Origin: Bacteroidia bacterium
GTDB lineage: Bacteria > Bacteroidota > Bacteroidia > UKL13-3
DNA: 64,000 nucleotides
Reading direction: 5' to 3'
Assembly (NCBI GenBank): GCA_020049855.1
Contig: JAGVLJ010000001.1
Coordinates: 1 to 64,000 of the forward strand
This document shows, piece by piece, positions 19,469 to 59,488 of the stretch. Under the pieces are notes generated by a model that saw only the letters and a program-made list of their open reading frames with translations, ran no database searches and had not been told where the DNA came from. How positions within the stretch are numbered: position 1 is the stretch's first letter; every line of letters starts with the position of its first letter. A program made the translations under genes and the position numbers.

Positions 19469-20119
19469 ATGGTGGTGCGTTGTATAGTATGTTTATTTTT
19501 TACCCTTTGGGTGCTGAATGTGTACGCGCAAAATATATCCCCTGTTTTTGTATTGCCAAACTATGCTGACACCATACTTGAAGCCGACAGGGATACATGT
19601 ATTGATATCAGCATAAACGCTCCCGAAACGGGAGATTCCGTCATTCTTTGGGGCGAGTCAGAACTATTTATTGATCGCGATACCACCGCTTATTTTCTTG
19701 AGAAAACCGGAATAGGCTCCTTACAGACACGTTTATGTTTTCGAAAGGCGTGCCGAAAGGTACAGGGTGACCCTTATTTTATTACCTTGTACGCACGCGA
19801 CAGTTCCTTTGATACAACAATTCATTATGTACGGGTAAGGTTCAAAAATAGTTTGCAGGAAGAACTGAGCAAGCTGCCCAATGTATTTACCCCCAACGGA
19901 GATAATCTAAATGATACATTTTCGCTCTCGGAAGCTAAGGCTCAATGCGAAAACTTATTTAATGTATACATCTACAACCGCTGGGGACAAGTGGTGTACT
20001 CCAATAATCGCATTTCGTTTAAGTGGGACGGGGGTAATTGTCCGGCAGGAGTTTATTATTACATCATCACCTCGTCAGGAGGAATTAATGCACAGGGAAT
20101 AATTACATTAATTCGTTGA
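19469..20119 (+). CDS. Gliding-motility-associated C-terminal domain protein (T9SS type B)
   Basis: LPNVFTPNGDNLNDTFSL...FNVYIYNRWGQVVYSNNRISFKWDGGNCPAGVYYYIITSSGG. Confidence 0.88.
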   Translation: MVVRCIVCLFFTLWVLNVYAQNISPVFVLPNYADTILEADRDTCIDISINAPETGDSVILWGESELFIDRDTTAYFLEKTGIGSLQTRLCFRKACRKVQGDPYFITLYARDSSFDTTIHYVRVRFKNSLQEELSKLPNVFTPNGDNLNDTFSLSEAKAQCENLFNVYIYNRWGQVVYSNNRISFKWDGGNCPAGVYYYIITSSGGINAQGIITLIR

Positions 20120-21162: not shown

Positions 21163-23157
21163 ATGAACCAACTTATAAAAATACACTTTTTTTTAATTCT
21201 GCTTTCTGTTACGCTAAGCACAATGGCCACTGTTACCGATAGCCTCGAAAAAGTTTTGCAATTTTCAATGCCTGATTCAACGCGCATTCAGGTAATGGGC
21301 GATTTGTGTTTTGCCTACCGCGCGAGCAATGCCGACAAGGCAAAATATTTTGGAAAGGAGGCACTGAAACTTTCATTAAAAACAAACAATCTGAAAGGAA
21401 TTGCTCAGTCATATAACGATTTGGGTATTCTGTTTTTCGATGAGGGGAATTATCCAAAAGCAATAGAATACTATAATGAATCCTTAAAGATAAGACAAAA
21501 ACTTGGAGATGAGAAAGGAATTGCAGCTATATATAACAAACTGGGGATTTTGCATCAAACAAAAGGGGAGTTTAAAGAGGCTCTTGGTTTTCAGTTTAAG
21601 GCTTTAAAAATTTACGAAGCCATTTCATTTGACTATGGAACGTCCTATTGCCTTAACAATATTGCCATCATTTATTACAACCTGAATAAATATGATGAGT
21701 CGCTTAAATTTCACAAGCAGTCTCTTTCCATTAAAGAGAAAATTAACGATCAATCGGGTATCAGTGGCTCGCTAAGCAATATCGGAAACATCTATTTCTC
21801 TCAGAAAAACTATTCTGAAGCGATTTCTCATTTTAAAAAGGCAGAGAAAATACAAAGAGAAAGAGAGGAGATTTATTATCTGGCAAGTACGCTCAACAAT
21901 TTAGGATCGTGCTACAAAAATTTAGAGAACTATAAAGAAGCCCTGAAGTATATTACCGAGTCGTATACCATCAGACTAAAACTGAATGATAAAGTTGGCC
22001 AAACCTCATGCCTCTTAAATACTGCACAAATTCAAATGCTCCGCAATCAATTTGGCTCTGCCATTGAGATGCTGCACAAAGGCCTTTCCATTGCACATGA
22101 ACTTGGGGCGAAAGATGAACTGGAAAACTATTATGAAAACCTGTCGGAAGCATACAAAGCAACAGGAGAACACAAAAAAGCACTCAGCTATTTTAAGTTA
22201 AGAAACGCTTATCGCGATTCGATTTACAGCGAGGAAAACAATAAGCAGATTGCCGAAATGCAAACCAAGTACGATACAGAGAAAAAAGAACAGCAAATTG
22301 AGTTGCTTACCCGCGAAAAGAAAATTAACGAAATAGTAAACGAACGAAAACAAAATACGCTTTTGTTAAGTTCAGCCGGATTGGGCTTAGCGGTGGTGCT
22401 GGTGCTTATAATTCTGTTCATGTACAGGCAAAAGGAAACGGCCAATAAAAGACTCATTCTACTTGATAAAGAAAAAAACGAGTTCCTTGGTATTGCCGCC
22501 CACGATCTGAAAAACCCCCTGCAAACCATTATAGGATTTTGCCAAATGCAGGCAGACTATTTTGACAAGCTCTCGAAAGAAAAAATTCTTAAATACTCTC
22601 AAAACATTGAGATTTCTGCCCGTAGAATGATTGAGTTAATAAATAATCTTCTTGACATTAACGCCATAGAGCAAGGGCGAATAAAAGGCAATCCCGAATT
22701 TTTTGATATGTATGAACAGGTATCCAAAACCCTGTCGAATTTCGATTATGCCGCTAAACAAAAAAATATTCAGTTTGTGCTTACCCGTAAAAATTCATTA
22801 ACGATTACCACCGATCGCTATATGTTTGCTCAGGTGTTTGAAAACTTAATGAGTAATGCCCTCAAATATTCTCCTACAAATAAGAAAATTTTCGTTGACC
22901 TGTTCTCTGACCAAATGACGGCCGGTTTTAGTATAAAGGATGAAGGACCTGGAATGAATACCGAAGACAAGAAAAAAATGTTTGGTAAGTTCACCCGATT
23001 AAGTGCCCGGCCTACCGGGGGCGAAACCAGCAATGGTCTTGGTCTTTCCATTGTGAAAAAACTTACTGATTTAATGGGAGGAAATATAATCTGCCAATCA
23101 GAGCTCGGTGACGGATGCTGTTTTATTGTGCGCTTTCCAATAACAACAGCCGTATGA
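21163..23157 (+). CDS. TPR-containing sensor histidine kinase
   Basis: TPR array, TM segment, H-box FLGIAAHDLKNPLQTI, N-box FENLMSNALKYSP, G1 DEGPGMN, G2 GLGLSIVKKL. Confidence 0.93.
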   Translation: MNQLIKIHFFLILLSVTLSTMATVTDSLEKVLQFSMPDSTRIQVMGDLCFAYRASNADKAKYFGKEALKLSLKTNNLKGIAQSYNDLGILFFDEGNYPKAIEYYNESLKIRQKLGDEKGIAAIYNKLGILHQTKGEFKEALGFQFKALKIYEAISFDYGTSYCLNNIAIIYYNLNKYDESLKFHKQSLSIKEKINDQSGISGSLSNIGNIYFSQKNYSEAISHFKKAEKIQREREEIYYLASTLNNLGSCYKNLENYKEALKYITESYTIRLKLNDKVGQTSCLLNTAQIQMLRNQFGSAIEMLHKGLSIAHELGAKDELENYYENLSEAYKATGEHKKALSYFKLRNAYRDSIYSEENNKQIAEMQTKYDTEKKEQQIELLTREKKINEIVNERKQNTLLLSSAGLGLAVVLVLIILFMYRQKETANKRLILLDKEKNEFLGIAAHDLKNPLQTIIGFCQMQADYFDKLSKEKILKYSQNIEISARRMIELINNLLDINAIEQGRIKGNPEFFDMYEQVSKTLSNFDYAAKQKNIQFVLTRKNSLTITTDRYMFAQVFENLMSNALKYSPTNKKIFVDLFSDQMTAGFSIKDEGPGMNTEDKKKMFGKFTRLSARPTGGETSNGLGLSIVKKLTDLMGGNIICQSELGDGCCFIVRFPITTAV

Positions 23158-24965
23158 AAAAAACGCTCCTTTTATTTTTGCATGCTGTTGCAATTTTTGC
23201 AGCTGGTGCTGTGAGCAGGGAACAACAACGAATTGACAGCCTCGAGGCTTTGCTTTCGACCACAACCGACACCACCCGAATGAGCATTTTACTCATTCTT
23301 TGTGGTGACTATATGAAAGCGGATCCCAAAAAGTTACTTTCCTATGGTACAGAGTTGGAGCATTTAGCTAACGCATCGGGTAACTGGGACTATAAAGCAC
23401 AGGGATTGCGCTATAAAGGAATTGGATTAAAGGCTACTGGCAAGTATAAGGAATCGGGGGATGCTTATCTTAAAGCACTCAAAATTTTCGAATCGCACCA
23501 AGATATTTTTGGTTCAGCCTCGTGCAATAATAGTTTAGGGGCACTTTATTTTAGCCTTAACGAATTAAGCAAAGCCGAATACTACTACCTTAAAACTATT
23601 GAACAATCAAAAAAGGCCGGTATTGACCGATTCCTTCCGTCAGCCTACAACAACTTAGGTGCCGTATATGCCATGCAAAAAAAGTATAATCAGGCATTGA
23701 TGTATTTTAACGAAGGGCTGAAACTGCGATTAAAGCAAAAAGACGAGTATGGTATTGCTTCGAGCTACGGAAACCTTGGACGCATTTACACGATTTTGGG
23801 TAGGTTTAAAAAAGCACTCGAGTTTCAGAAAAAAAGTCTTTCAATAAGAGAAACACTGAAAGACGAAGAAGGAGTTGCCAATACGCTGAACAATATCGGA
23901 GAAATATTTCTGGATGAGAAAAATTTTAACGAAGCCATAATCTGGTTTAATAAAGGGCTGGCGATTGCCAAACTGTTCGGGTATCAGGAATTAATCCGGT
24001 CGAGCTACGAGGCACTTTCCGAATGCCATGAAGGGTTGAAAAATTATGCGGCAGCGCATGAATATTTGAGTTTGAGTGTGGCCATAAAAGACAGCATGAT
24101 GAATATTGAGAACCGGAATCAGCTGGAGGAACTGACTACTCAATACGAAACCGAAAAGAAAGAACAGCAAATAAAAATACTTGCTAAAAACAACGAAATA
24201 AAAGAAGCAGAAAACAGCCGGAAACAACTATACATTTACCTTATTCTATCCGGTTCGGCTGTGGTGGTGGTGTTGCTTTTTGTTTTAATGCGCCTGTATA
24301 AACAAAAGGAACTGGCAAACAAAAAACTTAAAAAACTTGATGAGGAAAAAAACGAATTTTTAGGTTTGGCTGCGACCGATTTAAAAAAACCGCTCACCAC
24401 CATAATAGATTATTGCCGCATGCAGGCCGATTATTTTGATAAGCTCAATAAGGAAAAAATTCTTAAACACTCGGCCAATATCAAATTAGCTGCCTCCAAA
24501 ATGGTAGACCTCATCAGCAATTTGCTTGATGTAAATGCCATTGAGCAGGGAAGAATAAAAAACAATCCGGAGCGTATTGATTTGAATAAATTTTTTGACG
24601 ACTTGTTTAAAGAGTTTGAACAACATGCCAGAGAAAAAAATATTACCTTTAAAATAGACAACTCAGGCGGAAGCTACCATGTACATGCCGACCACCGCCT
24701 GCTGACACATGTAACCGAAAATCTGCTGGCAAATTCATTGAAAAATACAGACTCAAACACCCATATTTTTATAAAGTTACTTAAAAAAGAAGGCAAAGCG
24801 GGATACGAATTAACGGATTCAAAAAATCAGAAAACAAACAGCCAAGATGTCATTTTAGCAATGGGCATTATTAAGCGGATGCTGAACATAATGCAAGCCG
24901 AAATTGAAGTGAAAAACGACTCCTTCAGGGGCTCAGTGGTCACCATTTTATTAAGCGAAGGATGA
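23154..24965 (+). CDS. TPR-containing histidine-kinase-like pseudokinase
   Basis: Paralogous to the preceding ORF; H-box reads FLGLAATDLKKPLTTI (His to Thr); no G1 or G2 motifs; ATG overlaps the previous stop (ATGA). Confidence 0.85.
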   Translation: MKKTLLLFLHAVAIFAAGAVSREQQRIDSLEALLSTTTDTTRMSILLILCGDYMKADPKKLLSYGTELEHLANASGNWDYKAQGLRYKGIGLKATGKYKESGDAYLKALKIFESHQDIFGSASCNNSLGALYFSLNELSKAEYYYLKTIEQSKKAGIDRFLPSAYNNLGAVYAMQKKYNQALMYFNEGLKLRLKQKDEYGIASSYGNLGRIYTILGRFKKALEFQKKSLSIRETLKDEEGVANTLNNIGEIFLDEKNFNEAIIWFNKGLAIAKLFGYQELIRSSYEALSECHEGLKNYAAAHEYLSLSVAIKDSMMNIENRNQLEELTTQYETEKKEQQIKILAKNNEIKEAENSRKQLYIYLILSGSAVVVVLLFVLMRLYKQKELANKKLKKLDEEKNEFLGLAATDLKKPLTTIIDYCRMQADYFDKLNKEKILKHSANIKLAASKMVDLISNLLDVNAIEQGRIKNNPERIDLNKFFDDLFKEFEQHAREKNITFKIDNSGGSYHVHADHRLLTHVTENLLANSLKNTDSNTHIFIKLLKKEGKAGYELTDSKNQKTNSQDVILAMGIIKRMLNIMQAEIEVKNDSFRGSVVTILLSEG

Positions 24966-25576
24966 TGATGAATAAAAACAAACTTCACCTACAAGGGTTA
25001 AAATATCAGCTTAGTTCACATTTTTTATTTAACGTATTGAACACCGTGAGGGCACTCACGCGAAAAAACACCGAAAAGGCTGCAAGTATAATAACCCTTA
25101 CCAGCGAATACCTGCGGTATGCCCTGCATAAACTCGATCATTTTGAAACCACATTGGGCGAAGAAAAAAACGGTATTGAACTTTTCCTGCATTTACAGTC
25201 ATATCGTTTTCATGATCCCATCGTTATGAGATGGAATATTCCCGAAAATCTTCTGCTTGCCAAAATTCCTTCCTTTCTATTGCAGCCACTAATAGAGTCG
25301 CTTTATAAAAAAGCAGATAAAGATGCCGAAGGAAGACAACAAATAGCTCTTGAAGCACTCGTAAAAAATAAAAATCTGATTCTGTCCATTTACTGCCCAA
25401 AATGCCTTCCCGACAAAGAAGCAGCAGGTATCTTTGTTCCTAAAAGTGACGTAGAACAAGGGGTGGAACAAGTTTATGTTCTATTGCGAGAGTTATATGA
25501 AGGAAAGGCTGAAATAGAAATCATTGAAAAAGGGAACTCAAAAAAAATTCGGCTCCAAATTCCATATAAAACATGA
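24962..25576 (+). CDS. Degenerate LytS-type (His_kinase/YehU-like) protein
   Basis: LKYQLSSHFLFNVLNTVRALTRKNTEKAASIITLTSEYLRYAL matches the His_kinase core; the N-box position reads LLQPLIESLYKKADKD; no GxGL motif. Confidence 0.75.
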   Translation: MMMNKNKLHLQGLKYQLSSHFLFNVLNTVRALTRKNTEKAASIITLTSEYLRYALHKLDHFETTLGEEKNGIELFLHLQSYRFHDPIVMRWNIPENLLLAKIPSFLLQPLIESLYKKADKDAEGRQQIALEALVKNKNLILSIYCPKCLPDKEAAGIFVPKSDVEQGVEQVYVLLRELYEGKAEIEIIEKGNSKKIRLQIPYKT

Positions 25577-26310
25577 AAACAAAATTAAAAGCAATAATTG
25601 TAGATGACGAACCCTATGCACGTGCAGAGCTGGCAGAGTTGCTGGTGTCCTACAATAGGGTTGAACTAATTGGAGAAGCAGGCTCTCTCACAGAGGCTGT
25701 AGAAATGATTGAAACAAATAAGCCCGATGTGGTTTTTTTGGATATTGAGATGAATGGAGAAAATGGCTTTGAATTACTCAACCTGTGCGATATTGAATTT
25801 AAAACCGTTTTTGTAACCGCCTATAATCAATATGCCATACGAGCTTTTGAGGTAAACGCCATTGACTACCTTCTTAAACCCGTGAATACACAACGACTTG
25901 CACAAACATTAAAAAAATTAGGAGACCTGACAAGTGCTGAGCAGGAAGCCTCAAGCGGCTTACCAAAGCTTACTGCCAATGACCGCCTGTTAGTTACCCT
26001 TAGCCGAAAAATGAACTTTATAAAAATCTGTGATATTAAATACATAGTAGCAGCCGGAGATTATTCAGAACTGGTTACCGTGAATAACGAGCATGCTTTG
26101 GTACAACGTAAAATGCGTGAGTGGGAAGTTCAGTTGCCCGAAAAAAACTTTCAGCGTATTCACCGCACCACCATTATCAACCTTGATTTTGTTGACAAAA
26201 TTGAACGATACGGAAAAGAAAATGCCCTCGTGTTTATGAAAGGGGTTGAAAAGCACCTTGACATTAGTAAAAACTACCTCTCCGAATTAAAAAGCCGGTT
26301 TAAAGTATAG
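25573..26310 (+). CDS. LytTR-family response regulator
   Basis: REC domain (IIVDDEPYARAELAELL, DVVFLDIEMNGENGFELL, VTAYNQYAIRAFEVNAIDYLLKPV) and LytTR domain (YIVAAGDYSELVTVN...FQRIHRTTIINLDFVDKIERYG). Confidence 0.93.
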   Translation: MKTKLKAIIVDDEPYARAELAELLVSYNRVELIGEAGSLTEAVEMIETNKPDVVFLDIEMNGENGFELLNLCDIEFKTVFVTAYNQYAIRAFEVNAIDYLLKPVNTQRLAQTLKKLGDLTSAEQEASSGLPKLTANDRLLVTLSRKMNFIKICDIKYIVAAGDYSELVTVNNEHALVQRKMREWEVQLPEKNFQRIHRTTIINLDFVDKIERYGKENALVFMKGVEKHLDISKNYLSELKSRFKV

Positions 26311-26436: not shown

Positions 26437-29400
26437 ATGAAACAAACAATTACCTACTTTTATACCTTGCTCGGGTTAGCTCTGGGTATGGTTGTAAATC
26501 CGGTGAATTTGCAGGCTCAGTGCGGAATTGCCTCACAGGTTAAACCCGTTGTATCCGCGTCAACCGTGTGCTCGGGAAATTCTGTTACGATGTCAGTATT
26601 TGGCCTTCCGGTAAACACCTGGATTTACCGTGACAATGCCGGAGTATGGCAAAACATGTTCACCGGATCAACAACCACATATACACACTACAGCACATCA
26701 GTAAGTTTTGCCACCACCCGTGAATATCGCGCAGTAGTATCGGCTACGGGTTGTACTATCGACACCACATTGGCAGCCATAGTAACACTTGTTCCGGTCA
26801 CCTACGGAAACAGCAGTGTGTTACCTGCCACTTCCACAAACACGATTTGTTCGAATTCCAATATCATGTTTAGCGTTCGCAACGACCTTCAGGTAAGCGG
26901 TTGGTATTATCGCGATAATGGAGTTGGTTCTTTTAACTATTTTGCGGGCTCTAATCAATTCAGCACCTCTTTTTCTGTGGGTACCACTACTAACCGGGAA
27001 ATAAAAGTGCTTACCCGTCAGCCCAACTCTTGTCAGGTGGATAGTTCACAAAGCATCACCATTACTGTTCAGCCACGTACCGGGATAATAAATCCTGCTA
27101 TCGGAATTTCTACCAGCACCCCTGTGGTTTGCGCGGGGAGCTCGGTTAGCCTTCAGTTAAATTCTTCCTATTCCGGAAGCATTAACTGGCTGTATCGTAA
27201 CAGCGGCACCACCAGTTGGACTTATTTTTCGGCTTCTCCCAACGCTACTGATGCCAACACAACGGTTACCGCCAATACCACCCGTGAATACCGCATTGTT
27301 TTGCAATCAACCACCGGATGTACTTATGACTCTTCGTCCATTATTACAGCGCTCATTAACGCCCCTGTGCCGGGCAACCTGCGCAGTTTAAAACCTTCAA
27401 CCTCAACTCCGGTTATTTGTACCGGAAGTTCCTCTTCCGTTTCAGTTTCTACCGGTTATTCAGGCTCAGTAATTCGCTGGTTATATCGCGACAATAATGC
27501 CGGGAGCTGGAATATATTATCAAGCACATCTACTTCGGTTACGCAATCAATTAATGTTACTTCGGTTACTACAAGAGCTTATCGTGTATTGCTAAGAAAT
27601 GTTGCCTTGTGCAGGCAGGATACTTCGGAAGAAATAACTGTTTTGGTGAACCCTTTTACATATGGAAACACTACAAAAGTTTCTCCTTTGATACAACATC
27701 AAACTATCTGCTCAGGATATAATGCGCTGCTTTCGGTTCCTTCGGGGGTAAACGTGCAAAACTGGCTATACCGAACCAATGGCGGCATCTGGCAATATTT
27801 TTCAAGCGGACAAACAGTTTATGATTATAACACCAGCGTTACAACTTCCACCAACCGCGACTACGTGGTACTGGTGCGCGATAATTCATCTTGCAGCATT
27901 GACACAAGTACTGTGGCAAGTGTTACCATTAAACCTACCGTTTACGGAAGTTTACCATACCAGATTACACCGAATGTAACTACACCGATGGTTTGCTACG
28001 GAAACGCCTCACAAGTTGGTTTTACGCTTAACGGAAACTACCAGATATTAAAATGGATTTATAAAGACAATGCCGGAACATGGGCCGATAACAGCAGTAC
28101 GGGTTCAACCCTGTATGATTACAACACTTCAGTAAGCACAAACACCAATCGTACATACCGGGCTATTATTCGCAATAACGAAAGCTGTATTGCCGACTCA
28201 ACACAACCTGCTTCGGTAGTTATAAATACAAGGGCATATGGAAATCTTACCTCGGTTGCGCCCACAGCAGGGGCGACAAGTGTTTGTAGTGGAACTTCGG
28301 TTTCGCTTAGTACCACTTTGCCTACAAACTATTCTTCGGTTCAGGCATGGTACAGGCGCGACAGTGTTACCGGTTTTTGGACAAACTTTGGTTCGGGAAC
28401 AAGCGTTAACGATAATGGTACCACTATCACCGCATCGGTAAACCGTGAGTATCGCTCCTTGTTTTACAGCAGCTCCCAATGTCGTTTTGATACCTCTGAT
28501 GCCTCGTATGTAACCATAAATATAAGAACAAGAACTGCCAACAACAGCGTGGCTCCGCAACTTAGCACAACAGGGTTGGTATGCAGCGGAAAAAATATTT
28601 CTTCATATATTAATTTGCCATCGGGAACATCGGTGCAAAAGTGGATTTACCGAGACGGAAGCACCGGTAACTGGCTGGATGTTTCGGGCTCCAGTGCCTC
28701 TACCAGCTATACTGATACGAAAACAGGGGTATTGGTAAACACCCAACGTTTTTACCGCGTAATTTTTACCAATAACAATACCTGTTCTATTGATACTTCT
28801 GCTTCGCTTGGCGTTTCCATTCAAGCCGTGAGCGGAGGAACTACCAGCAGCTATGTACCAACTGCATCGGTCGGCAATATTTGTTCGGGAACATCGGTAT
28901 TCATCAATGCATCTACGGGTGTTAGTTCAATCGATGCCATAAGATGGATATACAAAGACAATAGCGGCTCATGGCTCGATGCCATCAGCGGAAGCAATAG
29001 TTTTTCAGACCCAAGTTCCAACACCTTAACTTCTTCAAATATCCTAAGAAGTTACCGCCTGATTCATTACCGCAGCGGAGCATGTGTGATTGATACCACT
29101 TCATCTGTTTCAGTTAATATTAATGCCCGTACCTTCGGAATCAAAATGGTAGCTCCATCTGTTAGCCCTACTGCTGCCTGTGCCACAACTAATATAAATA
29201 TTGTTGTTTCGCTAGCTTCGGGTGACCAGATTCAAAAATATATTTCGCGCGACAATGCCGGAGCCTGGAGAGATATGATGTACACCTCCGCTTCCAGTAT
29301 AACAGACCAGAATACAAACGTAAGTGTAAACACCACCCGCGACTACCGTGTAATATTATATAATAACAACAGCTGCTCTTACGATACATCATTAGCGGCA

Positions 29401-32400
29401 ACCGTCACCATCAATCCAATGCAAAACGGGGTAAATACATCGGTAACTCCGGTTGCAACAACTACCAGTATGTGTGCAGGTGCAACTGCATCGGTAAACG
29501 TGAGCAGTACCATTGGTTCGCTTACCGTAAAAGGATGGATATACCGGGACAATAACGGTGCGTGGATGCCGGGACAAACGGGTACTTCCACTAGCTTTAA
29601 CCAAACCACCTACACGGGTATTGCTTCCAATATTAATCGTGAGTACCGCGCTTTGGTAACACGTGGCAGTGGTTGCGGAATTGATACATCGGCCGGAGTT
29701 ACTGTGGTTATTAATAAACAAACCAACGGATACATAACAAATGCCCCCAACATCCTGGTCAATCCATTTTGCGTAGCATCTGGAACTGCGGTTGGTATAA
29801 ATATAACAGCACCTTCTGGGTACTCTGTTTTACGCTGGCAGACAAGAGACAATAATGGTAGTTGGGATGAATTCTCTTACTCTACATCGGCAACATTAAT
29901 TAACGATTATAATATTAATGTTTCGGCTGCAGTCAGTCGCCAATACCGCGTAATTGCAAGCAGCAGCACCAATTGCAGCATTGACACCTCGGCCACGACT
30001 ACCATTACCATCAATCCGCTTACTGGGGGAACCATAAACACGGTTACCCCAACCATCTCTTCCACTACGGTTTGTTATGGGCAGAATGCGACCGTGAGTG
30101 TAAGTCTTCCATCGGGTTATTCTATGGTGAAATGGGTGTATTCAGATAACAACGGGCCATTAAAAGACTTTTATACTTCGGCAACCGGAACTTCATTCTC
30201 TGACAACAATACACAAGTGCAAACTACCGTGGCAAGAACCTATTATGCCATTATACAAAGCAGCACTAACTGCCGCAAAGATACTTCGCTGGGACTTGGA
30301 GTAACCATTTTGCCCTGGAGCATCAATACAGGAGCGCTTAGTTCGGTTACGCCAACATCAAATCCAACAGGCGGAATTTGTTCGGGAAACAGTGTTTCGC
30401 TAAATGTAAATCCTGGAGCCAACAACTCAGTTTACAAATGGATTTATACGCAATACCCAACGGGTTCGTTCAGCGGGCCAACTTACGATATATTAAACAG
30501 CGCAAGCACATCGGTAACACACAGTAACACATTTATCAGTTCTGCGGCAACAAGGCTTTACCGCGCAGTAGTAAGAAATAATGCAGCCTGCCGGTTAGAT
30601 ACCACCAACTCGGTTTGGGTTAATATCAACCTGCAATCATTCGGATCGGATACTAATTTGGTTATTTCGGCTGTTGATACCGTTTGTTCTTCTGCTTCAC
30701 TCAATCTTTCTATCTCTACCACCGGAAGTATTATCAACTGGCTTTACCGGGATAACAACGGACCATTAAATATTATTCCATCAAGTGCAGGTGTAAGTTC
30801 AATAACCGACAATAACACAACAGCAAGCACCGGAGTAAACAGAAAATACTATGTTTTGGTTTTCAGAAGTGTGAATTGCAAAACCGATACTTCAAAAGTA
30901 AAATCGGTTTACCTCAAAGCAAGGACAGCCGGAAACAGCTCCACCAAAGCCGTTATTTCGGTTGATACGGTTTGTATAGGAACTTCTTCGGTAAGCACGA
31001 GTATTTCCGCATCCAATGTGCTGAAATGGATATACCGCGATAACTTTAGCGGCAACTGGAATGTGATTCCTTCGAGTGCATCAAGTTTCCTTTCACACAA
31101 TATCAGCAATGTTACCAGCATAACAAGCCGTGAATACAGAGCTATTTTCGTAAGCACCTCGTGCAGCGAAGACACTTCTGTTGCCGATACCGTTGTTATC
31201 AAAACCCTTGCTTACGGGAATTTTACCGGCCTAACCCCAACCAGCTTAAACAACGTAAGCTGTAACGGAAACAGTGCAACCATAAGTATAATTCCCGGAA
31301 GCGGAAACACTGTAGTAAAATGGATTTACAGAAACAACAACACCGGCTCGTGGCTCGACTTTTCAACTACTACCAGCACCTCCATTACCGACTACAACAC
31401 CTATGTAAGCACTCCGCAAACACGTGTGTACCGGGTTATCATTCGCAGGGCATGCAGCAACGATACCACTGACGGGTACACCTTGTCGCTGTTGCCAAGG
31501 GGAAAAGGAAATGACAACACGCTTACCCCTACCGTGAACAACAGTACTGTTTGTACAGGAAGTTCGGTAACAGCATCTCTCACTCCCGGCAGCGGAAAAA
31601 TCATTACCATGTGGTTATACCGCAACGGCAACAGCGGTGCATGGAGTATACTAAGCTACACTTCATTAACCAGCGTAACGGACAACTATACCGTAATTGC
31701 ATCAACCACTACCCGCCAGTACTGCGCGATAGTGTATAACACCACTTTGTGCAGCGATGATACTACCAATAGTGTAAGTGTAACCATTAACCCGGTAACC
31801 GTAGGCACTACCAACATTAATCCTATGGTAGCTAATTCTACCGTATGTGTTGGTAATTTTTCTTCGGTAAGTATCAATCCGGGTACAGGTGCTTCGGTGG
31901 TAGGCTGGTTGTACAATGTAAGCGGAGGTGCATGGATGCCTTTTGGCTACACTACAAGCACCAGCATCAATGATTACAATACCAATTTCGGCAGCATCAC
32001 TACTAAAGCATACCGTGCGTTAATTTATACCTCCTCACCTTGCCGTATTGATACATCTAACTCAGTAAGCGTAACAATTACCCCGCGCACTTTTGGCAAC
32101 GATAACAGTTTTACCTTTACCGCACCAAGTCCGGTTTGCTCTGGTAGCAGCGCAAGCGTAAGCATTAGCGCCCTCGGGTCGGGCAACACCATTCAACGCT
32201 GGTTGTACAGAGATAACAGTACCGGAGCATGGAATTCCATTTATTCAACCTCTTCGGCTATCTCTGACAATAACACTTATGTATCCGCTGTAACCACGCG
32301 CACATACCGTACATTAATTGTGAAAGGAAATACCTGCACCATTGATACATCAAATGGGGTAAATGTTACCATCAATCCGGTGGGGGCAGGAAACGACAAC

Positions 32401-34884
32401 ACCATTACACCCACAGGAACCAACTCATATTGTACCGGAGCAGCAGTAAGTGTATCCGTTTCTCCGGGCAGTGGCAACAGCGTTTCTGGCTGGATTTACC
32501 GACTTAACAACTCCGGAGCATGGCAAACATATATTTCATATAACACCAACTCGTTTGTTGATTATAACACCTCGGTTTCTTCAACCACCATCAAATCCTA
32601 TCGTGCCCTGATTTATAAACCTGGTGTGTGCCGCATTGATACTTCGGCTGAGGCAACAGCTACCATCAACCCGCGCACCTATGGAAATCTGGGTACCTCC
32701 CCAACAGCATCAAGTACCAATGTGTGTTCAGGTTCTTCGGTTGCCATAAGCATTTCAACCAGCGGAACAGTAAACTACTGGCTCTATAAAGACAATAGCG
32801 GAAGCTGGACAACCTACAACTATCCATACACAAGCTTCTATGATTATAATACTAACGTAGGAAATACTACCACGCGTCAATATCGGGCCATTATCAATTC
32901 CTCAACCGGATGTACCATTGATACCTCGGCTGTATTATCTATTACCATCAGCCCACGTACCTATGGAAACAGCAGCACTACACCAACCGTAAATAACAGT
33001 ACCGTCTGCTCAGGAACACAAGTGGTGGCTCAGGTTGCCATTGGTGCAGGAAGTTCAGTAATAAAATGGATGTACCGCGATAACAATACCGGAATCTGGA
33101 TTGACGGATCGTATAGCAGCTCGGCCACGTATTACGATTACAACACAACTGTTGCAAGCAATATATCCAGAAGTTATCGCGCTTTGATTTTAAGCGGAAC
33201 CGGGTGCAGCATTGATACCACAAATGCAGTAAATGTAGCCATTAACCCAATAGGAAAAGGAAACTCAAGCAGTACCCCTACAGCAGCCAACTCAACCGTG
33301 TGTGCAGGTAATACCGTTAGTGTAATTTTTAACACAGGCAATGTGATGCAGTGGTTGTATCGCGATGGAGCCACAGGTGCATGGATTTCACTTGGCACGT
33401 CCGGATCAACCATGTATGACTATAATACCAATGTGGGCAATAACACCGCGCGTAATTACCGCGCCATTGTGTATAATACCGCAGCTTGCAGCTACGATAC
33501 CACCAATGCTGTTACAGTTAACATCAACCTACTTACCCTTGGAAATAGCACACAGGCTCCAATTATCTCAAATGGTACGATTTGTTCTGGTAACCTATCG
33601 TCTGTTTCATTAACCCCGGCAAACGGATATGTACAAAACTGGATGTATCGAGATGGAGGAACAGGTGCATGGACTGTTCTCACAAGCTTTGCTTCTAATA
33701 GCTATAATGATTACAATACCACCGTGACTTCCCAGATGAACAGAGAATACCGCGCAATTATTCGCAATCAGAGTACTTGTAGTCTAGATACATCGGCCGG
33801 CACTACCGTAATCATTAAGCCTATTGGAAAAAACACCGACCTTAGCTTTAAACCTCAGGTATCACAGAGCATGATTTGTTCCGGAGCAGGAATTACCCTT
33901 TCGTTCAGCAGCAACCCTACGGTTCAGGTTTGGATGTATCGCGACTCGGTAGTTGATAACTGGAGCCAGTTAAGCAGTGGAAATTACTTTACACATTATG
34001 GCACATACACCTCAACCGTAAAACACCGTACCTACGTGGCGCTGCTGTACAATACCTCTACCTGCTCTATTGACACTTCTGATATTGTATCGGTAACCAT
34101 CAACCCGAATACAAGCGGCAACGTGAACATTGTTCCCGTTACAGCCAATGCAGCCATTTGCAGTGGTAACTTTACCTCGGCAAAAATTGCAGGTTATATT
34201 GGGCAAATTCAATACTGGATATTTCGCAACAATAACGAGCCATGGAATATTCTAAGCTCAACAGCCGACAGCATTTCACAATCTAATGCCGGCACCACAG
34301 TAACCTCACTTACCAACCGTCAGTATCGGGCAATTATTTATACCGGTTGTAATACCGACTCTACACAGGTCCTTTCCGTTTCCATTGATATTGCCCCTGC
34401 CATTCCAATTGTAACAAAAACGGCAGGAGATACACTGGTATGTTCAACTTCCATCGGTGTAACTTACAAGTGGATTCGAAACGGAGTGGATATTCCCGGG
34501 GCTACCTCACAAAAATTTAAACCAACACAAAGCGGAAGTTATGTGGTAGAAATCTCAAATGCCAATGGCTGTAAGGCTGCTTCTGTACCGTATAACTTTA
34601 TTCCTACTTCATCAGGAGCTTCAATCTCAGCTAAAATAGCAGCCAAAGTATATCCGAACCCAACCGAAAACGGAGAAGTAACCGTACTGATTAACGGAAT
34701 AAATGCTGAAACGGTGAATTTCACGGTAATGAATGCTATGGGTCAGGTGGTGATTGGAAAACAACAAACCAACTTAATCAACTCGCAGTTTACCGTTCAT
34801 CTGGAGAATATGATGCATGGCTTGTATTTTATTCTGATTGAAGCCGAAGGAAAAACAAGCACTTTACCGCTTATTCGAAAATAA
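26437..34884 (+). CDS. Giant (~2815 aa) secreted repeat protein with T9SS type A sorting domain
   Basis: Signal peptide; 27 modules with the pattern CSGxxVxxx...W-[ILM]-YRDNxxGxW...YNTxVSxxTxRxYRA...CxxDTSxxVxVTINPxxxGN, then an Ig-like module, then CTD AAKVYPNPTENGEVTVLINGINAETVNFTVMNAMGQVV...LIRK. Confidence 0.9.
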   Translation: MKQTITYFYTLLGLALGMVVNPVNLQAQCGIASQVKPVVSASTVCSGNSVTMSVFGLPVNTWIYRDNAGVWQNMFTGSTTTYTHYSTSVSFATTREYRAVVSATGCTIDTTLAAIVTLVPVTYGNSSVLPATSTNTICSNSNIMFSVRNDLQVSGWYYRDNGVGSFNYFAGSNQFSTSFSVGTTTNREIKVLTRQPNSCQVDSSQSITITVQPRTGIINPAIGISTSTPVVCAGSSVSLQLNSSYSGSINWLYRNSGTTSWTYFSASPNATDANTTVTANTTREYRIVLQSTTGCTYDSSSIITALINAPVPGNLRSLKPSTSTPVICTGSSSSVSVSTGYSGSVIRWLYRDNNAGSWNILSSTSTSVTQSINVTSVTTRAYRVLLRNVALCRQDTSEEITVLVNPFTYGNTTKVSPLIQHQTICSGYNALLSVPSGVNVQNWLYRTNGGIWQYFSSGQTVYDYNTSVTTSTNRDYVVLVRDNSSCSIDTSTVASVTIKPTVYGSLPYQITPNVTTPMVCYGNASQVGFTLNGNYQILKWIYKDNAGTWADNSSTGSTLYDYNTSVSTNTNRTYRAIIRNNESCIADSTQPASVVINTRAYGNLTSVAPTAGATSVCSGTSVSLSTTLPTNYSSVQAWYRRDSVTGFWTNFGSGTSVNDNGTTITASVNREYRSLFYSSSQCRFDTSDASYVTINIRTRTANNSVAPQLSTTGLVCSGKNISSYINLPSGTSVQKWIYRDGSTGNWLDVSGSSASTSYTDTKTGVLVNTQRFYRVIFTNNNTCSIDTSASLGVSIQAVSGGTTSSYVPTASVGNICSGTSVFINASTGVSSIDAIRWIYKDNSGSWLDAISGSNSFSDPSSNTLTSSNILRSYRLIHYRSGACVIDTTSSVSVNINARTFGIKMVAPSVSPTAACATTNINIVVSLASGDQIQKYISRDNAGAWRDMMYTSASSITDQNTNVSVNTTRDYRVILYNNNSCSYDTSLAATVTINPMQNGVNTSVTPVATTTSMCAGATASVNVSSTIGSLTVKGWIYRDNNGAWMPGQTGTSTSFNQTTYTGIASNINREYRALVTRGSGCGIDTSAGVTVVINKQTNGYITNAPNILVNPFCVASGTAVGINITAPSGYSVLRWQTRDNNGSWDEFSYSTSATLINDYNINVSAAVSRQYRVIASSSTNCSIDTSATTTITINPLTGGTINTVTPTISSTTVCYGQNATVSVSLPSGYSMVKWVYSDNNGPLKDFYTSATGTSFSDNNTQVQTTVARTYYAIIQSSTNCRKDTSLGLGVTILPWSINTGALSSVTPTSNPTGGICSGNSVSLNVNPGANNSVYKWIYTQYPTGSFSGPTYDILNSASTSVTHSNTFISSAATRLYRAVVRNNAACRLDTTNSVWVNINLQSFGSDTNLVISAVDTVCSSASLNLSISTTGSIINWLYRDNNGPLNIIPSSAGVSSITDNNTTASTGVNRKYYVLVFRSVNCKTDTSKVKSVYLKARTAGNSSTKAVISVDTVCIGTSSVSTSISASNVLKWIYRDNFSGNWNVIPSSASSFLSHNISNVTSITSREYRAIFVSTSCSEDTSVADTVVIKTLAYGNFTGLTPTSLNNVSCNGNSATISIIPGSGNTVVKWIYRNNNTGSWLDFSTTTSTSITDYNTYVSTPQTRVYRVIIRRACSNDTTDGYTLSLLPRGKGNDNTLTPTVNNSTVCTGSSVTASLTPGSGKIITMWLYRNGNSGAWSILSYTSLTSVTDNYTVIASTTTRQYCAIVYNTTLCSDDTTNSVSVTINPVTVGTTNINPMVANSTVCVGNFSSVSINPGTGASVVGWLYNVSGGAWMPFGYTTSTSINDYNTNFGSITTKAYRALIYTSSPCRIDTSNSVSVTITPRTFGNDNSFTFTAPSPVCSGSSASVSISALGSGNTIQRWLYRDNSTGAWNSIYSTSSAISDNNTYVSAVTTRTYRTLIVKGNTCTIDTSNGVNVTINPVGAGNDNTITPTGTNSYCTGAAVSVSVSPGSGNSVSGWIYRLNNSGAWQTYISYNTNSFVDYNTSVSSTTIKSYRALIYKPGVCRIDTSAEATATINPRTYGNLGTSPTASSTNVCSGSSVAISISTSGTVNYWLYKDNSGSWTTYNYPYTSFYDYNTNVGNTTTRQYRAIINSSTGCTIDTSAVLSITISPRTYGNSSTTPTVNNSTVCSGTQVVAQVAIGAGSSVIKWMYRDNNTGIWIDGSYSSSATYYDYNTTVASNISRSYRALILSGTGCSIDTTNAVNVAINPIGKGNSSSTPTAANSTVCAGNTVSVIFNTGNVMQWLYRDGATGAWISLGTSGSTMYDYNTNVGNNTARNYRAIVYNTAACSYDTTNAVTVNINLLTLGNSTQAPIISNGTICSGNLSSVSLTPANGYVQNWMYRDGGTGAWTVLTSFASNSYNDYNTTVTSQMNREYRAIIRNQSTCSLDTSAGTTVIIKPIGKNTDLSFKPQVSQSMICSGAGITLSFSSNPTVQVWMYRDSVVDNWSQLSSGNYFTHYGTYTSTVKHRTYVALLYNTSTCSIDTSDIVSVTINPNTSGNVNIVPVTANAAICSGNFTSAKIAGYIGQIQYWIFRNNNEPWNILSSTADSISQSNAGTTVTSLTNRQYRAIIYTGCNTDSTQVLSVSIDIAPAIPIVTKTAGDTLVCSTSIGVTYKWIRNGVDIPGATSQKFKPTQSGSYVVEISNANGCKAASVPYNFIPTSSGASISAKIAAKVYPNPTENGEVTVLINGINAETVNFTVMNAMGQVVIGKQQTNLINSQFTVHLENMMHGLYFILIEAEGKTSTLPLIRK

Positions 34885-34918: not shown

Positions 34919-34953
34919 AGCCCGTTCCGCCTTCAAAGGTGGGCGGGCTTTTT
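34919..34953 (+). terminator. Intrinsic terminator downstream of the giant repeat gene
   Basis: AGCCCGttCCGCC ttcaaa GGTGGgCGGGCT followed by TTTTT. Confidence 0.75.
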
Positions 34954-44670: not shown

Positions 44671-45399
44671 TTAACCTTTTCTCTTACAAAAATTATATTG
44701 AATGCCGATTCCATAGTTCCACAGATTATGATAAAAAGTTGGAGGGCGGGGGTCAGCTCCACTTTTAATAAATTCAAGATATGTGTCTATTGCTTGATAT
44801 TTTCTGTAATAAATATTTGCCTGCACACTAACCCATGGAGAAATATTGTATGCAAGTTTTCCTCGAAATAAAATACTATTAACCGAAGAGTTAAATTGCG
44901 GGTCATTTCCACTCACCCAAGGAATTGATACCGTATAACCACCTCGAATATAGCTCTTGCCCTTAATTAAAGTGCCTTTGGTAAGTCCAACACTGATACC
45001 CGCTGACCACTTACCTTCACAAAAAGGGATGTCTTTTCCAATTACAAAAACTTTGTCCAAGTAGGCAAACTTTTTTTCTATCGCGAGAGGTGCAAGAAAC
45101 GTAGCACCGGGAGGAAATGCTCCTGTGGTATCCCACGTAAATGATGATTGGCTATAAAAAGTTCCCAAGGCAATGTAAAAATTCCTTTTAAACTTAAGTT
45201 GTAGCATACCCCCATAGGATAATCCCGGGTTATTCCTTTTATATACACGATCTGTTGTTGAAATATCATAGAAACGTGAAGACCCTAATACTTCCACAGC
45301 GAGACGATAACGCTTTTCGGTTGAGTCACTTGGTTCAGCTTTACTTAATAAGGGAGCTAACCAAATAATGAACACGTACAAAGAGGAATATTTTTTCAT
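44671..45399 (-). CDS. Outer-membrane or secreted beta-rich hypothetical protein
   Basis: Signal peptide, beta-barrel-like alternation; ATGA overlap with upstream GH16 gene. Confidence 0.55.
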   Translation of the reverse strand: MKKYSSLYVFIIWLAPLLSKAEPSDSTEKRYRLAVEVLGSSRFYDISTTDRVYKRNNPGLSYGGMLQLKFKRNFYIALGTFYSQSSFTWDTTGAFPPGATFLAPLAIEKKFAYLDKVFVIGKDIPFCEGKWSAGISVGLTKGTLIKGKSYIRGGYTVSIPWVSGNDPQFNSSVNSILFRGKLAYNISPWVSVQANIYYRKYQAIDTYLEFIKSGADPRPPTFYHNLWNYGIGIQYNFCKRKG

Positions 45400-46931
45400 T
45401 TTACTAAGTATATTTTACTTACAGTAGTTCTTGACGGAGTGATCGTTTTTAGCAAATAGTATCCTTCCTGCAAGTTAATTAAATTAAATTGACATTCTTC
45501 ACCAGAAGACAGTCCCTTTTTAATCAAAATATTACCTTGCCAATCCTGAATTTGTATCTCACAAGGTTCAACACTTCTATTTTGCATACTAAAAAATGGA
45601 CTCGTTGGAAAAGGTTTATCCATATCTGGTGGTCCACTCGTATAAAGAAGATTCGAGTCATGTACTGAATCATGTAGACCCTGCATTGACTCTCCACCTC
45701 CTCCATTACCTTCTTCAATTGAGTCAATAGGAAACAAACCCGTTGTATCAGTACTAGTATAAATTTGTTCGCTACAAGGTGAAATTCGGGCAGTAAAGTC
45801 GCTCCCATAAAGAATACTCATATTAGGATTAATAACAACTCTTTCTGAAGCAATAAGGTCTCGGTGAGTAACATCATTGGCGGCAAAATAAGGAGGGTCA
45901 GGATATACTATGGCACCAATAACCGGCATAATTACATTTGTACAAATTCCGTCACCCATTGTAATTACGCGACCAGTGTTAACAGTTGGGTCAGGAAGAT
46001 TTTGAAGCTGATTACAAATAAGGACATTCTGATTGCAGTCCATGGGAGCCCAAATTCGAATATAATCAATATCAAAATAAGCGGGAAATTGGGTGGTTTG
46101 ATCCGGTCCTGGTTCAAATGGTCCCATATCATTTGCAACAGCCATATTAGCTATTAAACGCATAACTCCAACAAACTCGTGTAGCACATATTTTTGCCCT
46201 ATGCCGTTTACAGCCCACATTATAATTCCTGGCAATCGATATCCTGTAACTGTAGTATAAGAAGAGCTAGTAAAATTGAAATTGGGTGAAATAATCCATC
46301 CGCCACAAGGCTGTAATTTCCAAACTTTTGGAAATGATGCCCCTTGTAATGTCCAACATTTATTAGCACTGCTACCAGGCCCATGCATAGCCCAGTGATA
46401 ACATACAGGGCACTCTCCTTTTAGCTCCATAATGTCAATTTCTTCGTCATAAGCACGCAGCCAGAAAGCGGGCCAAAGGCCTTTTCCAAATGGCGCTTTA
46501 AATCGTATTTCAAAGCAACCATACTTGTAAGGCTGACGCGTTACAATTGCACCTGAAGTGTAATTAAAATTTCTAAGATTGAGGTTATACGGTGGTTCAC
46601 GATCTGGGGCAATTTCAGCCAATGAATCCTCCCATGGTATAACAAGAACATTGTTTAACGTTTCGCGCTTTGTGATAATACTCAAGTAATGGGCGTACGC
46701 ATCCTGCCCAAAGGCGAAATTTCCGCTGTCAGTGTAATATTGCAGCTCCCGGTTTTTTGCAAGGGAATGAACATCCATTGGTCTCCAAAGCTTATCTAGA
46801 TCAAGCACTGTCCCATTAAACTCATCTCCATCCAAGTAAACCCATCCGTTAGACACAAACTGGCCATTAACGCTCTGAGTAAAATAGCCAAAGAGCAGTA
46901 CGAAAAAGTAGCTGAATATGCGCTTTTTCAT
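45396..46931 (-). CDS. Glycoside hydrolase family 16 protein with T9SS type A sorting domain
   Basis: GH16 catalytic motif EEIDIMELKG within GKGLWPAFWLRAYDEEIDIMELKG; CTD-like C-terminus ending LLKTITPSRTTVSKIYLVK. Confidence 0.85.
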   Translation of the reverse strand: MKKRIFSYFFVLLFGYFTQSVNGQFVSNGWVYLDGDEFNGTVLDLDKLWRPMDVHSLAKNRELQYYTDSGNFAFGQDAYAHYLSIITKRETLNNVLVIPWEDSLAEIAPDREPPYNLNLRNFNYTSGAIVTRQPYKYGCFEIRFKAPFGKGLWPAFWLRAYDEEIDIMELKGECPVCYHWAMHGPGSSANKCWTLQGASFPKVWKLQPCGGWIISPNFNFTSSSYTTVTGYRLPGIIMWAVNGIGQKYVLHEFVGVMRLIANMAVANDMGPFEPGPDQTTQFPAYFDIDYIRIWAPMDCNQNVLICNQLQNLPDPTVNTGRVITMGDGICTNVIMPVIGAIVYPDPPYFAANDVTHRDLIASERVVINPNMSILYGSDFTARISPCSEQIYTSTDTTGLFPIDSIEEGNGGGGESMQGLHDSVHDSNLLYTSGPPDMDKPFPTSPFFSMQNRSVEPCEIQIQDWQGNILIKKGLSSGEECQFNLINLQEGYYLLKTITPSRTTVSKIYLVK

Positions 46932-56902: not shown

Positions 56903-59488
56903 TTATTTCGTATCAGACTTTACTACCAAACGTCTTATGTAGGCTTGCCCGTTGGTATCGGCTTTAATAAAATAAATTCCCGAGGTCATTCCATCAATAG
57001 TCATCCCGGTTTTCTTTTCGTTAGTTTGCCTGTCCGCAACCTGTTCCCCGTTTACGTTAAAAAGGGTTATTCGTTTAATAGTTTCCTCACATTCAACAGT
57101 AAACATAGTAGCTGCGGGATTGGGATAAACCAGAAACGTTTGTTGCGTGGCTCCCGGCATAGTGGCCACACCTGTACTGAACGTGACATTGAGGTACACA
57201 TCGGCCGGCTCCGAGAGGCTCATGCCATCATACACGCAATATTGAAAACTGTCCTGTCCCATAAATCCGGCATCGGCTGTATAGGTAAACGATCCATTTT
57301 TATTCAGCGTAAGGTTGCCATGTGCGGGAGTTGTAATCATCACAGCTTCGAGTACGTTGCCATCCATGTCAAAATCATTTTTCATTACCCCGTTGGCCGC
57401 GTTTATCTGCACGGGTGTTAGTGTATTCAACACTGCGTATTGATCGCATACTGCATTCGCTTTACTGTTGAACAACGGCAGCTGATTTTTCATAACATAA
57501 TACGAAGTTTTTAATACTTCCTGCACATCAAGAGCCGTGTTCCACAATGGCCAACTGAAGCGGGCAGATGGTGTTAGGGAAAATCCATGATAAAATACCG
57601 TTATCGAAATCCCGTCAGATGTGGTGTCTTTGGCTCCAGCTATATCTTTATAATCATGAAACACCTTCATTTTATCGGGGGCGGTAAATTGCAGGTAATT
57701 CCAAGGAAGTTTGATGTCTATATAGCCATCGTAAATAGTTATCGCATCTTTTGATGAGGCTAATAATCCTCCTTTATTTACTTGCAGACTGCCTATATAC
57801 TGCACATCAGAGTACACATAGTTATTGCGCATACGCACCAGATTCCATTTACCCCCGTTGCTTACTATTGAGTGGAATAACTGAGCAGGAGTGGTTAAAT
57901 TATGCCATATACCAAACAAATCATAGGCTTCGGTTACAAAAAGATCGGCCGAATAATTGGTAATTCGCAGGGCAAACTCAGCACGGTTGCTTACTGTTTG
58001 TCCTTCAGGAAGAATTGATTCGCCCAGAGATGCGGCATAGGTATCGAACGTAATCCAGATCGTATCGGGCAACGCCATGGCTTGCGCCAAATCCAGGCGT
58101 AACTTAAAAAAATCATAATCAGCCCCGGCCTTAATTGTTGTAACCGATGAGCCGGGAGAAAAACTTTGCCAGTTTTGCAGGTTGTTTTGTTTTTGAAAAC
58201 TTACCAACCCAAAGTTCTGTTCGGCCGAAGATAGGTTATGCCATAGGATGCGGCTGTCGGCATCATAATCCAAAGGGTCGGCTATCCAGGTACGTTTAAA
58301 CCATTCATCAATCCAGGAAAAAACTATCCCTCCACCGCATCCGGCTGTTTGTAAATTGTGCAGCATTCGCATATTGTTTTCTCCCTGTTGCCGTTCATCA
58401 AAACCACCATGGTGCATACCACTTTGTGCAAAACGAGCCACTACCCAACTGGATGGCACACCGTACTCACCAATAATAAGCGGAAATTTTTTGTATGCTT
58501 GTTTTAAAAAGGTCAGGTATCCTAGGTAACTGTTTTGACCAATATCATCAGTAAAATTTGCATATCTGGGGTCGTTGCTCACAAAATCGGGATAATAGGG
58601 ATAGGCGTGATAGCTGGCAAAATAACCTGCGGGAGCCAGGCTTATATCAAGATTAGATACATTTATCGAAACGGTATCTTCGCCTCGGCTCGGCTCTTCG
58701 GGGTGGGCAATAGGATCAAGCGTAGGCCAGCTTGAAAAACTTACAGGCCGCATGGTTTGATAATATTGATACTCGTAAGTAACCAAATGGTTTAGTCGCT
58801 CGGCAATCCAGGCCTCGGCAGGGGTGGCTCCGGCAATAGAGATACGTGGCCCTGTAAAAGCACTGATGCCTGCATGATTCCTGTTGGCGTTTAAAACCTC
58901 AATCGGAAAAACCTCACGACCGGCAATATATCCCATCACCCATTTCGACACATCGGTGGCATAAGTTCCCCAGGCTTTTCCAACCCGTTGTGCAATAAAT
59001 TTATTTCCGTGTATGCAGTCAATATTGTCATTTATTTCCTGATCAAAAACAGAAGTAAGCTCATATACGTCCTGTTGGTAATTGGGAACATCTTCATCAA
59101 GCCATACCTCTTGAAAAATATACATTGGATTTTGCGGGTTGGCGTCATTAATTGAATCAAGTACCTGATAAAAATGTGGCATATGCAGCGTGTACAACCG
59201 TATCACATTAAACCCGGCAGCTTTCATCTTCACAATCCAGTTTACATATTGCTGCCTTGGTACATCCATTTCTCCAGGGAACTTTCCGGGAACCGATGCC
59301 CCTAAATTAATTCCTTTTACAAAAAAAGGAACATACTTGCTGCCATTCCACACCGTCAGGTGAAGAGAGTCGACACTAAACGGAACCGAATCATTAGGAT
59401 TGCATCCCGTGGCCGAAACGCGCAGGGCAGCCAATAACAAAACAAATAATGTGTTAATTTTTTTCATGTGGTGTGTTAAGTTTTTCAA
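56903..59488 (-). CDS. Secreted TIM-barrel glycosidase-like protein with cadherin/Ig-like module and T9SS sorting domain
   Basis: FFVKGINLGASVPGKFPGEMDVPRQQYVNWIVKMKAAGFNVIRLYTLH...LIIGEYGVPSSW; DSFQYCVYDGMSLSEPADVYLNV; CTD FLVYPNPAATMFTVECEETIKRITLFNVNGEQV...RRLVVK. Confidence 0.7.
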   Translation of the reverse strand: MKNLTHHMKKINTLFVLLLAALRVSATGCNPNDSVPFSVDSLHLTVWNGSKYVPFFVKGINLGASVPGKFPGEMDVPRQQYVNWIVKMKAAGFNVIRLYTLHMPHFYQVLDSINDANPQNPMYIFQEVWLDEDVPNYQQDVYELTSVFDQEINDNIDCIHGNKFIAQRVGKAWGTYATDVSKWVMGYIAGREVFPIEVLNANRNHAGISAFTGPRISIAGATPAEAWIAERLNHLVTYEYQYYQTMRPVSFSSWPTLDPIAHPEEPSRGEDTVSINVSNLDISLAPAGYFASYHAYPYYPDFVSNDPRYANFTDDIGQNSYLGYLTFLKQAYKKFPLIIGEYGVPSSWVVARFAQSGMHHGGFDERQQGENNMRMLHNLQTAGCGGGIVFSWIDEWFKRTWIADPLDYDADSRILWHNLSSAEQNFGLVSFQKQNNLQNWQSFSPGSSVTTIKAGADYDFFKLRLDLAQAMALPDTIWITFDTYAASLGESILPEGQTVSNRAEFALRITNYSADLFVTEAYDLFGIWHNLTTPAQLFHSIVSNGGKWNLVRMRNNYVYSDVQYIGSLQVNKGGLLASSKDAITIYDGYIDIKLPWNYLQFTAPDKMKVFHDYKDIAGAKDTTSDGISITVFYHGFSLTPSARFSWPLWNTALDVQEVLKTSYYVMKNQLPLFNSKANAVCDQYAVLNTLTPVQINAANGVMKNDFDMDGNVLEAVMITTPAHGNLTLNKNGSFTYTADAGFMGQDSFQYCVYDGMSLSEPADVYLNVTFSTGVATMPGATQQTFLVYPNPAATMFTVECEETIKRITLFNVNGEQVADRQTNEKKTGMTIDGMTSGIYFIKADTNGQAYIRRLVVKSDTK

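Follow-up and report, generated by a model that had tools for sequence, protein, structure and literature searches.

A giant open frame and its genomic surroundings

The window (the whole 64,000-nucleotide stretch of DNA analyzed) harbors a gene for a giant protein consisting of a signal-peptide-like leader, 27 tandem modules of one type, a further divergent Ig-like module, and a type A C-terminal sorting domain (CTD) of the type IX secretion system (T9SS) (Table 1). The CTD scored over the cut-offs of both models applied (PF18962 and TIGR04183), which bore out the giant T9SS protein claimed in the initial annotation. Cleavage is predicted to occur directly in front of the QCG tripeptide, and this would place Cys29, a conserved extra Cys outside the Cys pairs of the modules, at the mature N-terminus. 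Serine, threonine, and asparagine account for 38% of the residues, and the protein has a net charge of +39 with few acidic residues. Weak Pfam matches to an amine-dehydrogenase domain and to RlmN_N were put down to composition effects. A phage origin was rejected, as no PHROGs match to the protein was obtained and a three-module stretch (32965 to 33834) had no match in phage records. Promoter-like sites were no more numerous in the scan than in shuffled sequences.

Table 1. Features at the locus of the giant gene (positions in the window).
Feature	Position	Strand	Details
Sensory cluster directly upstream	21163–26310	+	Two TPR histidine-kinase-like genes, His_kinase-family gene, LytTR response regulator (Pfam)
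Giant tandem-Ig T9SS protein	26437–34884	+	2815 aa; open frame and translation; start ATG at 26437
Signal-peptide-like leader, residues 1–27	26437–26517	+	Hydrophobic; ends xxA before QCG in 6/6 related N-termini; judged by eye
Mature N-terminus QCG with Cys29 (predicted)	26518–26526	+	6/6 related N-termini
27 tandem Ig_7-family modules	26527–34416	+	93–102 aa each; one Cys pair and one CxxD[ST][ST] each
Module 12, local outlier between G000 and G002	29728–30030	+	68% identity; synonymous sites saturated
Divergent Ig-like module, residues about 2655–2729	34399–34623	+	Own Cys pair
T9SS type A CTD, residues 2738–2808	34648–34860	+	PF18962 39.9 bits, TIGR04183 37.7 bits, both over cut-off
Terminator-like hairpin 3' of the gene	34926–34947	+	Consensus scan only

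The genome encodes SprA and five PorV-family proteins over cut-off, so that a leader (judged by eye), a type A CTD, and a T9SS in the genome, the three marks of type A cargo, were found together. About 95 type A CTDs over cut-off were counted in the 2.9-Mb genome, and the gene described here is the longest open frame among them. The sensory cluster precedes the gene in the same order in both other genomes of the genus, and no match to it was detected in the compared stretches from two further genomes (G010 and G083); regulation of the giant gene by this cluster is plausible.

Other genes in the window also encode proteins with T9SS sorting domains. One (56903 to 59488) is a type A protein in which a tandem-95-type repeat and a weak match of the Bap/LapF type were found, and represents another candidate large surface protein. 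A GH16-type glycoside hydrolase (45396 to 46931) carries a weak type A sorting domain, and a small protein of 216 aa (19469 to 20119) has a type B (CHU_C) sorting domain with little room for a passenger.

Module pattern, family, and predicted fold

Module borders were set at the first Cys of each repeat, which gave 27 modules of the W-x-YRDN type. This count, the Cys pair present in every module, and the single divergent Ig-like module that follows the array all agreed with the initial annotation. In the module alignment, both Cys and the Asp of CxxD[TS][ST] were invariant (27/27), and the core W (26/27), the Y (26/27) and R (25/27) of TxRxYR, and the G of CSG (24/27) were also widely retained; module 18 carries an additional Cys. 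All 27 modules were recovered at 80–114 bits by the module HMM, as they must be by construction, and the same HMM detected 27 modules in each of two orthologues at 67–115 bits, far beyond chance.

Pairwise identity between modules was low at the protein level (19–51%, median 34%) and at the DNA level (32–58%, median 44%), so the copies are old and are not products of recent slippage, in line with the old expansion proposed earlier. Higher-order block duplication was also rejected, since comparison of the array with itself gave no strong offset. Neighboring modules were mildly alike (z about 2 at offsets 1 and 2 in G000, the genome of the window, and 3–4 in G001, a genome of the same genus).

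The module is a member of a described family, Ig_7 (PF19081), with an Ig/FnIII-like beta-sandwich fold. The whole protein scored 66.5 bits against the Pfam model (gathering cut-off, 27.3), and 13 of the 27 isolated modules matched it at E <= 0.01, single modules scoring under the Pfam cut-off or merely near it. Profile-profile comparison of the modules with 63 Ig_7-type modules from relatives and from the same genome gave an E-value of 2e-15 (0.26 for a column-shuffled control); because this set was gathered using the module HMM itself, it is Pfam's own model that provides the independent evidence for Ig_7. The modules share with Ig_7, a CHU_C-associated family, the pattern CSG...W...W...TTxYRAxV...C...[DS]...V-T-V-x-P and the tandem arrangement seen in large T9SS proteins of relatives, but their W-x-YRDN core, DYNT stretch, and invariant CxxD[TS][ST] set them apart as a narrow subfamily.

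A discrete repeating fold was predicted by AlphaFold for three consecutive modules (modules 21–23; pLDDT 92.4), a modeling check that the initial annotation had proposed, and module 23 alone was modeled with eight strands at a pLDDT of 92.3. The single-module model matched Fc-receptor, titin, and FnIII domains with Z of 9–10 over 82–93 residues. Among solved structures, no sequence relatives of the modules were found, and the sorting domain alone gave a weak match. The Pfam assignment and the fold searches together rule out an unknown repeat or an unknown fold. The earlier description as an apparently uncharacterised repeat, which was to fall if the HMM landed in a family both known and functionally characterised, is thus unfair as to the family, which is known and named, and fair as to Ig_7 function, which is unstudied; no paper naming PF19081 was found in the literature searched.

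The invariance of the Cys residues suggests one disulfide per module. The Asp that follows the second Cys lies in a possible O-glycosylation site. The Bacteroidota O-glycosylation motif, D(S/T)(A/I/L/V/M/T/S/G/F/C), is present on all confirmed glycopeptides of P. gingivalis, although T9SS cargo of that species tends to be without it (PMC8729774). A D[ST] followed by a permitted residue occupied the CxxD site in 27/27 modules of each of the three complete arrays (G000, G001, and G002, the last also from the same genus), and the whole protein contained 34 such motifs versus 19.0 ± 3.7 in shuffles. In the generic Ig_7 set, Asp was present in 33/63 modules, and S/T came next in 30/33 of these but in 11/30 of the modules without Asp (Fisher p 1e-5, a test weakened by shared ancestry). 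An O-glycan may be attached at the CxxD-[ST]-[ST] of each module; a structural role for Asp-Thr is also possible.

Conservation of module number and order among relatives

Of 64 genomes from the same family, five had strong matches to the module profile (E <= 1e-12), namely that of the window, two of its genus, and one each from two other genera. The 394 further genomes sampled from the class, each scored for its 12 best candidates, gave no match at E <= 1e-13. The YRDN form is accordingly a lineage-specific branch of Ig_7, and weaker generic Ig_7 matches were common among relatives. A scan with the single protein pointed to one named relative, JAIBAK010000004.1 (MAG Bacteroidia bacterium isolate SSF48), which was taken to be the same record as a G002 contig.

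Full orthologues (2814 and 2793 aa) are encoded by the two same-genus species. All three complete arrays contain exactly 27 modules in the same order, a register that is documented in full by these three arrays only, two of which are close relatives. Between G000 and G002, every module (27/27) found its best partner at its own position, with a mean identity of 89%, and dN/dS versus this nearer orthologue was 0.085, indicating purifying selection. Between G000 and G001, the mean module identity was 47%; own position was ranked first by 21/27 modules, and in the corrected score matrix offset 0 stood out with z 15 (next best, 1.6). Mean identity in this comparison was 39% in the N-terminal half and 55% in the C-terminal half, and the divergent Ig-like module shared 59% identity with its G001 counterpart versus 48% for the whole protein.

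A corresponding register was detected in G083, a genome of a different genus, where the gene is split over two contigs and was treated as one gene. Its 13 N-terminal modules aligned at offset 0 (z 5.1–5.9, reached in at most 1 of 500 permutations). Its 10 C-terminal modules aligned at offset +17 versus G000 and G002 (z 3.8 and 4.7; p 0.006 and < 0.002), and at the same offset versus G001 with z 3.0 and p 0.09. The two fragments fit positions 1–13 and 18–27, as expected of a 27-module array whose modules 14–17 were lost in the contig gap. The G010 fragment was in register with G083 (z 4.4), and a register with G000 or G001 was not detectable for it.

Several local observations were made on these and similar arrays. 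Module 12 is flanked by modules with 87–94% identity between G000 and G002, and its own much lower value (Table 1) makes module replacement possible. At a contig end (L042, positions 1–990), G001 has one more gene of this type, which is truncated; its three modules follow an AQCG N-terminus and are in register with the beginning of the main copy. Further, another tandem Ig_7 giant, found in two species that share a genus, has open frames of 2501 aa (G006) and 2498 aa (G018), so its length may be stable too.

Possible functions of the array

The gene encodes a giant T9SS-exported tandem-Ig surface protein of a kind that is already known, and the initial annotation's suggestion of discrete two-Cys domains was supported, with a rod-like surface protein as the likely role. 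The reading that we favor, with odds slightly on its side, is that of a fixed-length, disulfide-stiffened, possibly glycosylated extracellular rod, which would be exported by SprA/PorV, anchored statically or released, and would act as an adhesin stalk. In this mechanism the protein would be exported by Sec and carried through the outer membrane by the SprA translocon and the PorV shuttle, whereupon the sorting domain would be cleaved and the rod statically anchored or released. Type A CTDs are known to use PorV, with static anchoring or release as the result in F. johnsoniae (PMC12618676). Each module would be locked by one disulfide and may bear an O-glycan at its CxxD-[ST]-[ST]. An Ig domain is about 4 nm long, and 28 domains would thus give a contour length of roughly 110 nm. 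The C-terminal modules would adjoin the cell, and the N-terminal ones, which are more variable between species, would point outwards, where Cys29 may cross-link rods. Expression may be controlled by the adjoining kinase/LytTR cluster. Adhesion itself remains putative, since no ligand-binding head domain was found in the protein.

Long arrays of Ig-like modules at the cell surface are also typical of SiiE, MpAFP, and the giant Mobiluncus adhesins. The modules of SiiE and MpAFP, however, are calcium-dependent and are not T9SS cargo, and the protein described here has few acidic residues, reflected in the net charge, and a Cys pair in every module.

The lack of a head domain would suit a structural coat, in which many side-by-side copies form a glycosylated brush around the cell that holds the surroundings at a set distance and protects against phages, enzymes, or grazers. 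The abundance of S, T, and N, the possible glycan site in each module, and the fixed module number point the same way, and nothing speaks directly against a coat; it would require high expression, a property that sequence cannot show, and we regard it as rather unlikely. Less probable still is a grappling hook or filament like GhpA of Aureispira sp. (PDB 9g8b, 9flw, 9flx), whose chains would assemble via their Ig modules into a fibre catching prey or neighbors (ixotrophy). GhpA is likewise a giant T9SS-exported tandem Ig-like protein from the same phylum, and Cys29 could link chains here. In Foldseek, GhpA fragments took the top three places for the three-module model (E 1e-12 to 2e-11), and in VIA-align one fragment ranked top, with Z 11.3 and an rmsd of 11.7 over 241 residues, but unrelated Ig and FnIII arrays followed close behind (Z 11.0 and 10.8). 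In the single-module fold searches the best rows did not include GhpA, and the sequence profile found no GhpA chain. Kinship is therefore suggestive for the three-module model and not sustained for one module, which makes GhpA a lead rather than a family to which the protein can be assigned. The Aureispira hook protein is a heptameric T9SS product (PMC11205867). The protein described here has no detectable sequence relation to GhpA.

A moving gliding adhesin of the SprB type was judged highly improbable. Both proteins are large T9SS surface proteins of similar size with repeats, and PorP/SprF-family genes occur elsewhere in the genome. SprB of Flavobacterium johnsoniae, however, combines a type B CTD with a linked SprF, whereas the CTD here is of type A and no PorP/SprF gene is present on this contig. 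Type B CTDs with SprF lead to the gliding machinery, and SprB given a type A CTD was immobile or released; RemA, a type A protein, is still able to take part in gliding (PMC12618676). RemA of F. johnsoniae shares with the present protein the type A CTD and the PorV route, but it has a lectin domain that is absent here.

Beyond the adhesin stalk, the array might be a molecular ruler, with exactly 27 position-specific modules, one O-glycan at a fixed place in each, and this arrangement kept across genera of one family because rod length and surface order are under selection. We put this forward tentatively, as the less probable way of accounting for the conserved register. If true, it would set the array apart from the repeats of many giant adhesins, which expand and contract freely.

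Of these features, the fixed 27-module register most deserves follow-up. The gene offers a clean test case, with a single module type, a fixed count, and a retained order, each module having one predicted disulfide and one possible O-glycan. In these Bacteroidota genomes, tandem Ig_7-type proteins rank with the largest of all that are secreted. If length is not selected, the gene encodes an ordinary giant surface protein, and one unknown repeat has been taken off the list; if length is selected, array size would be tied to function at a distance of about 100 nm from the cell.
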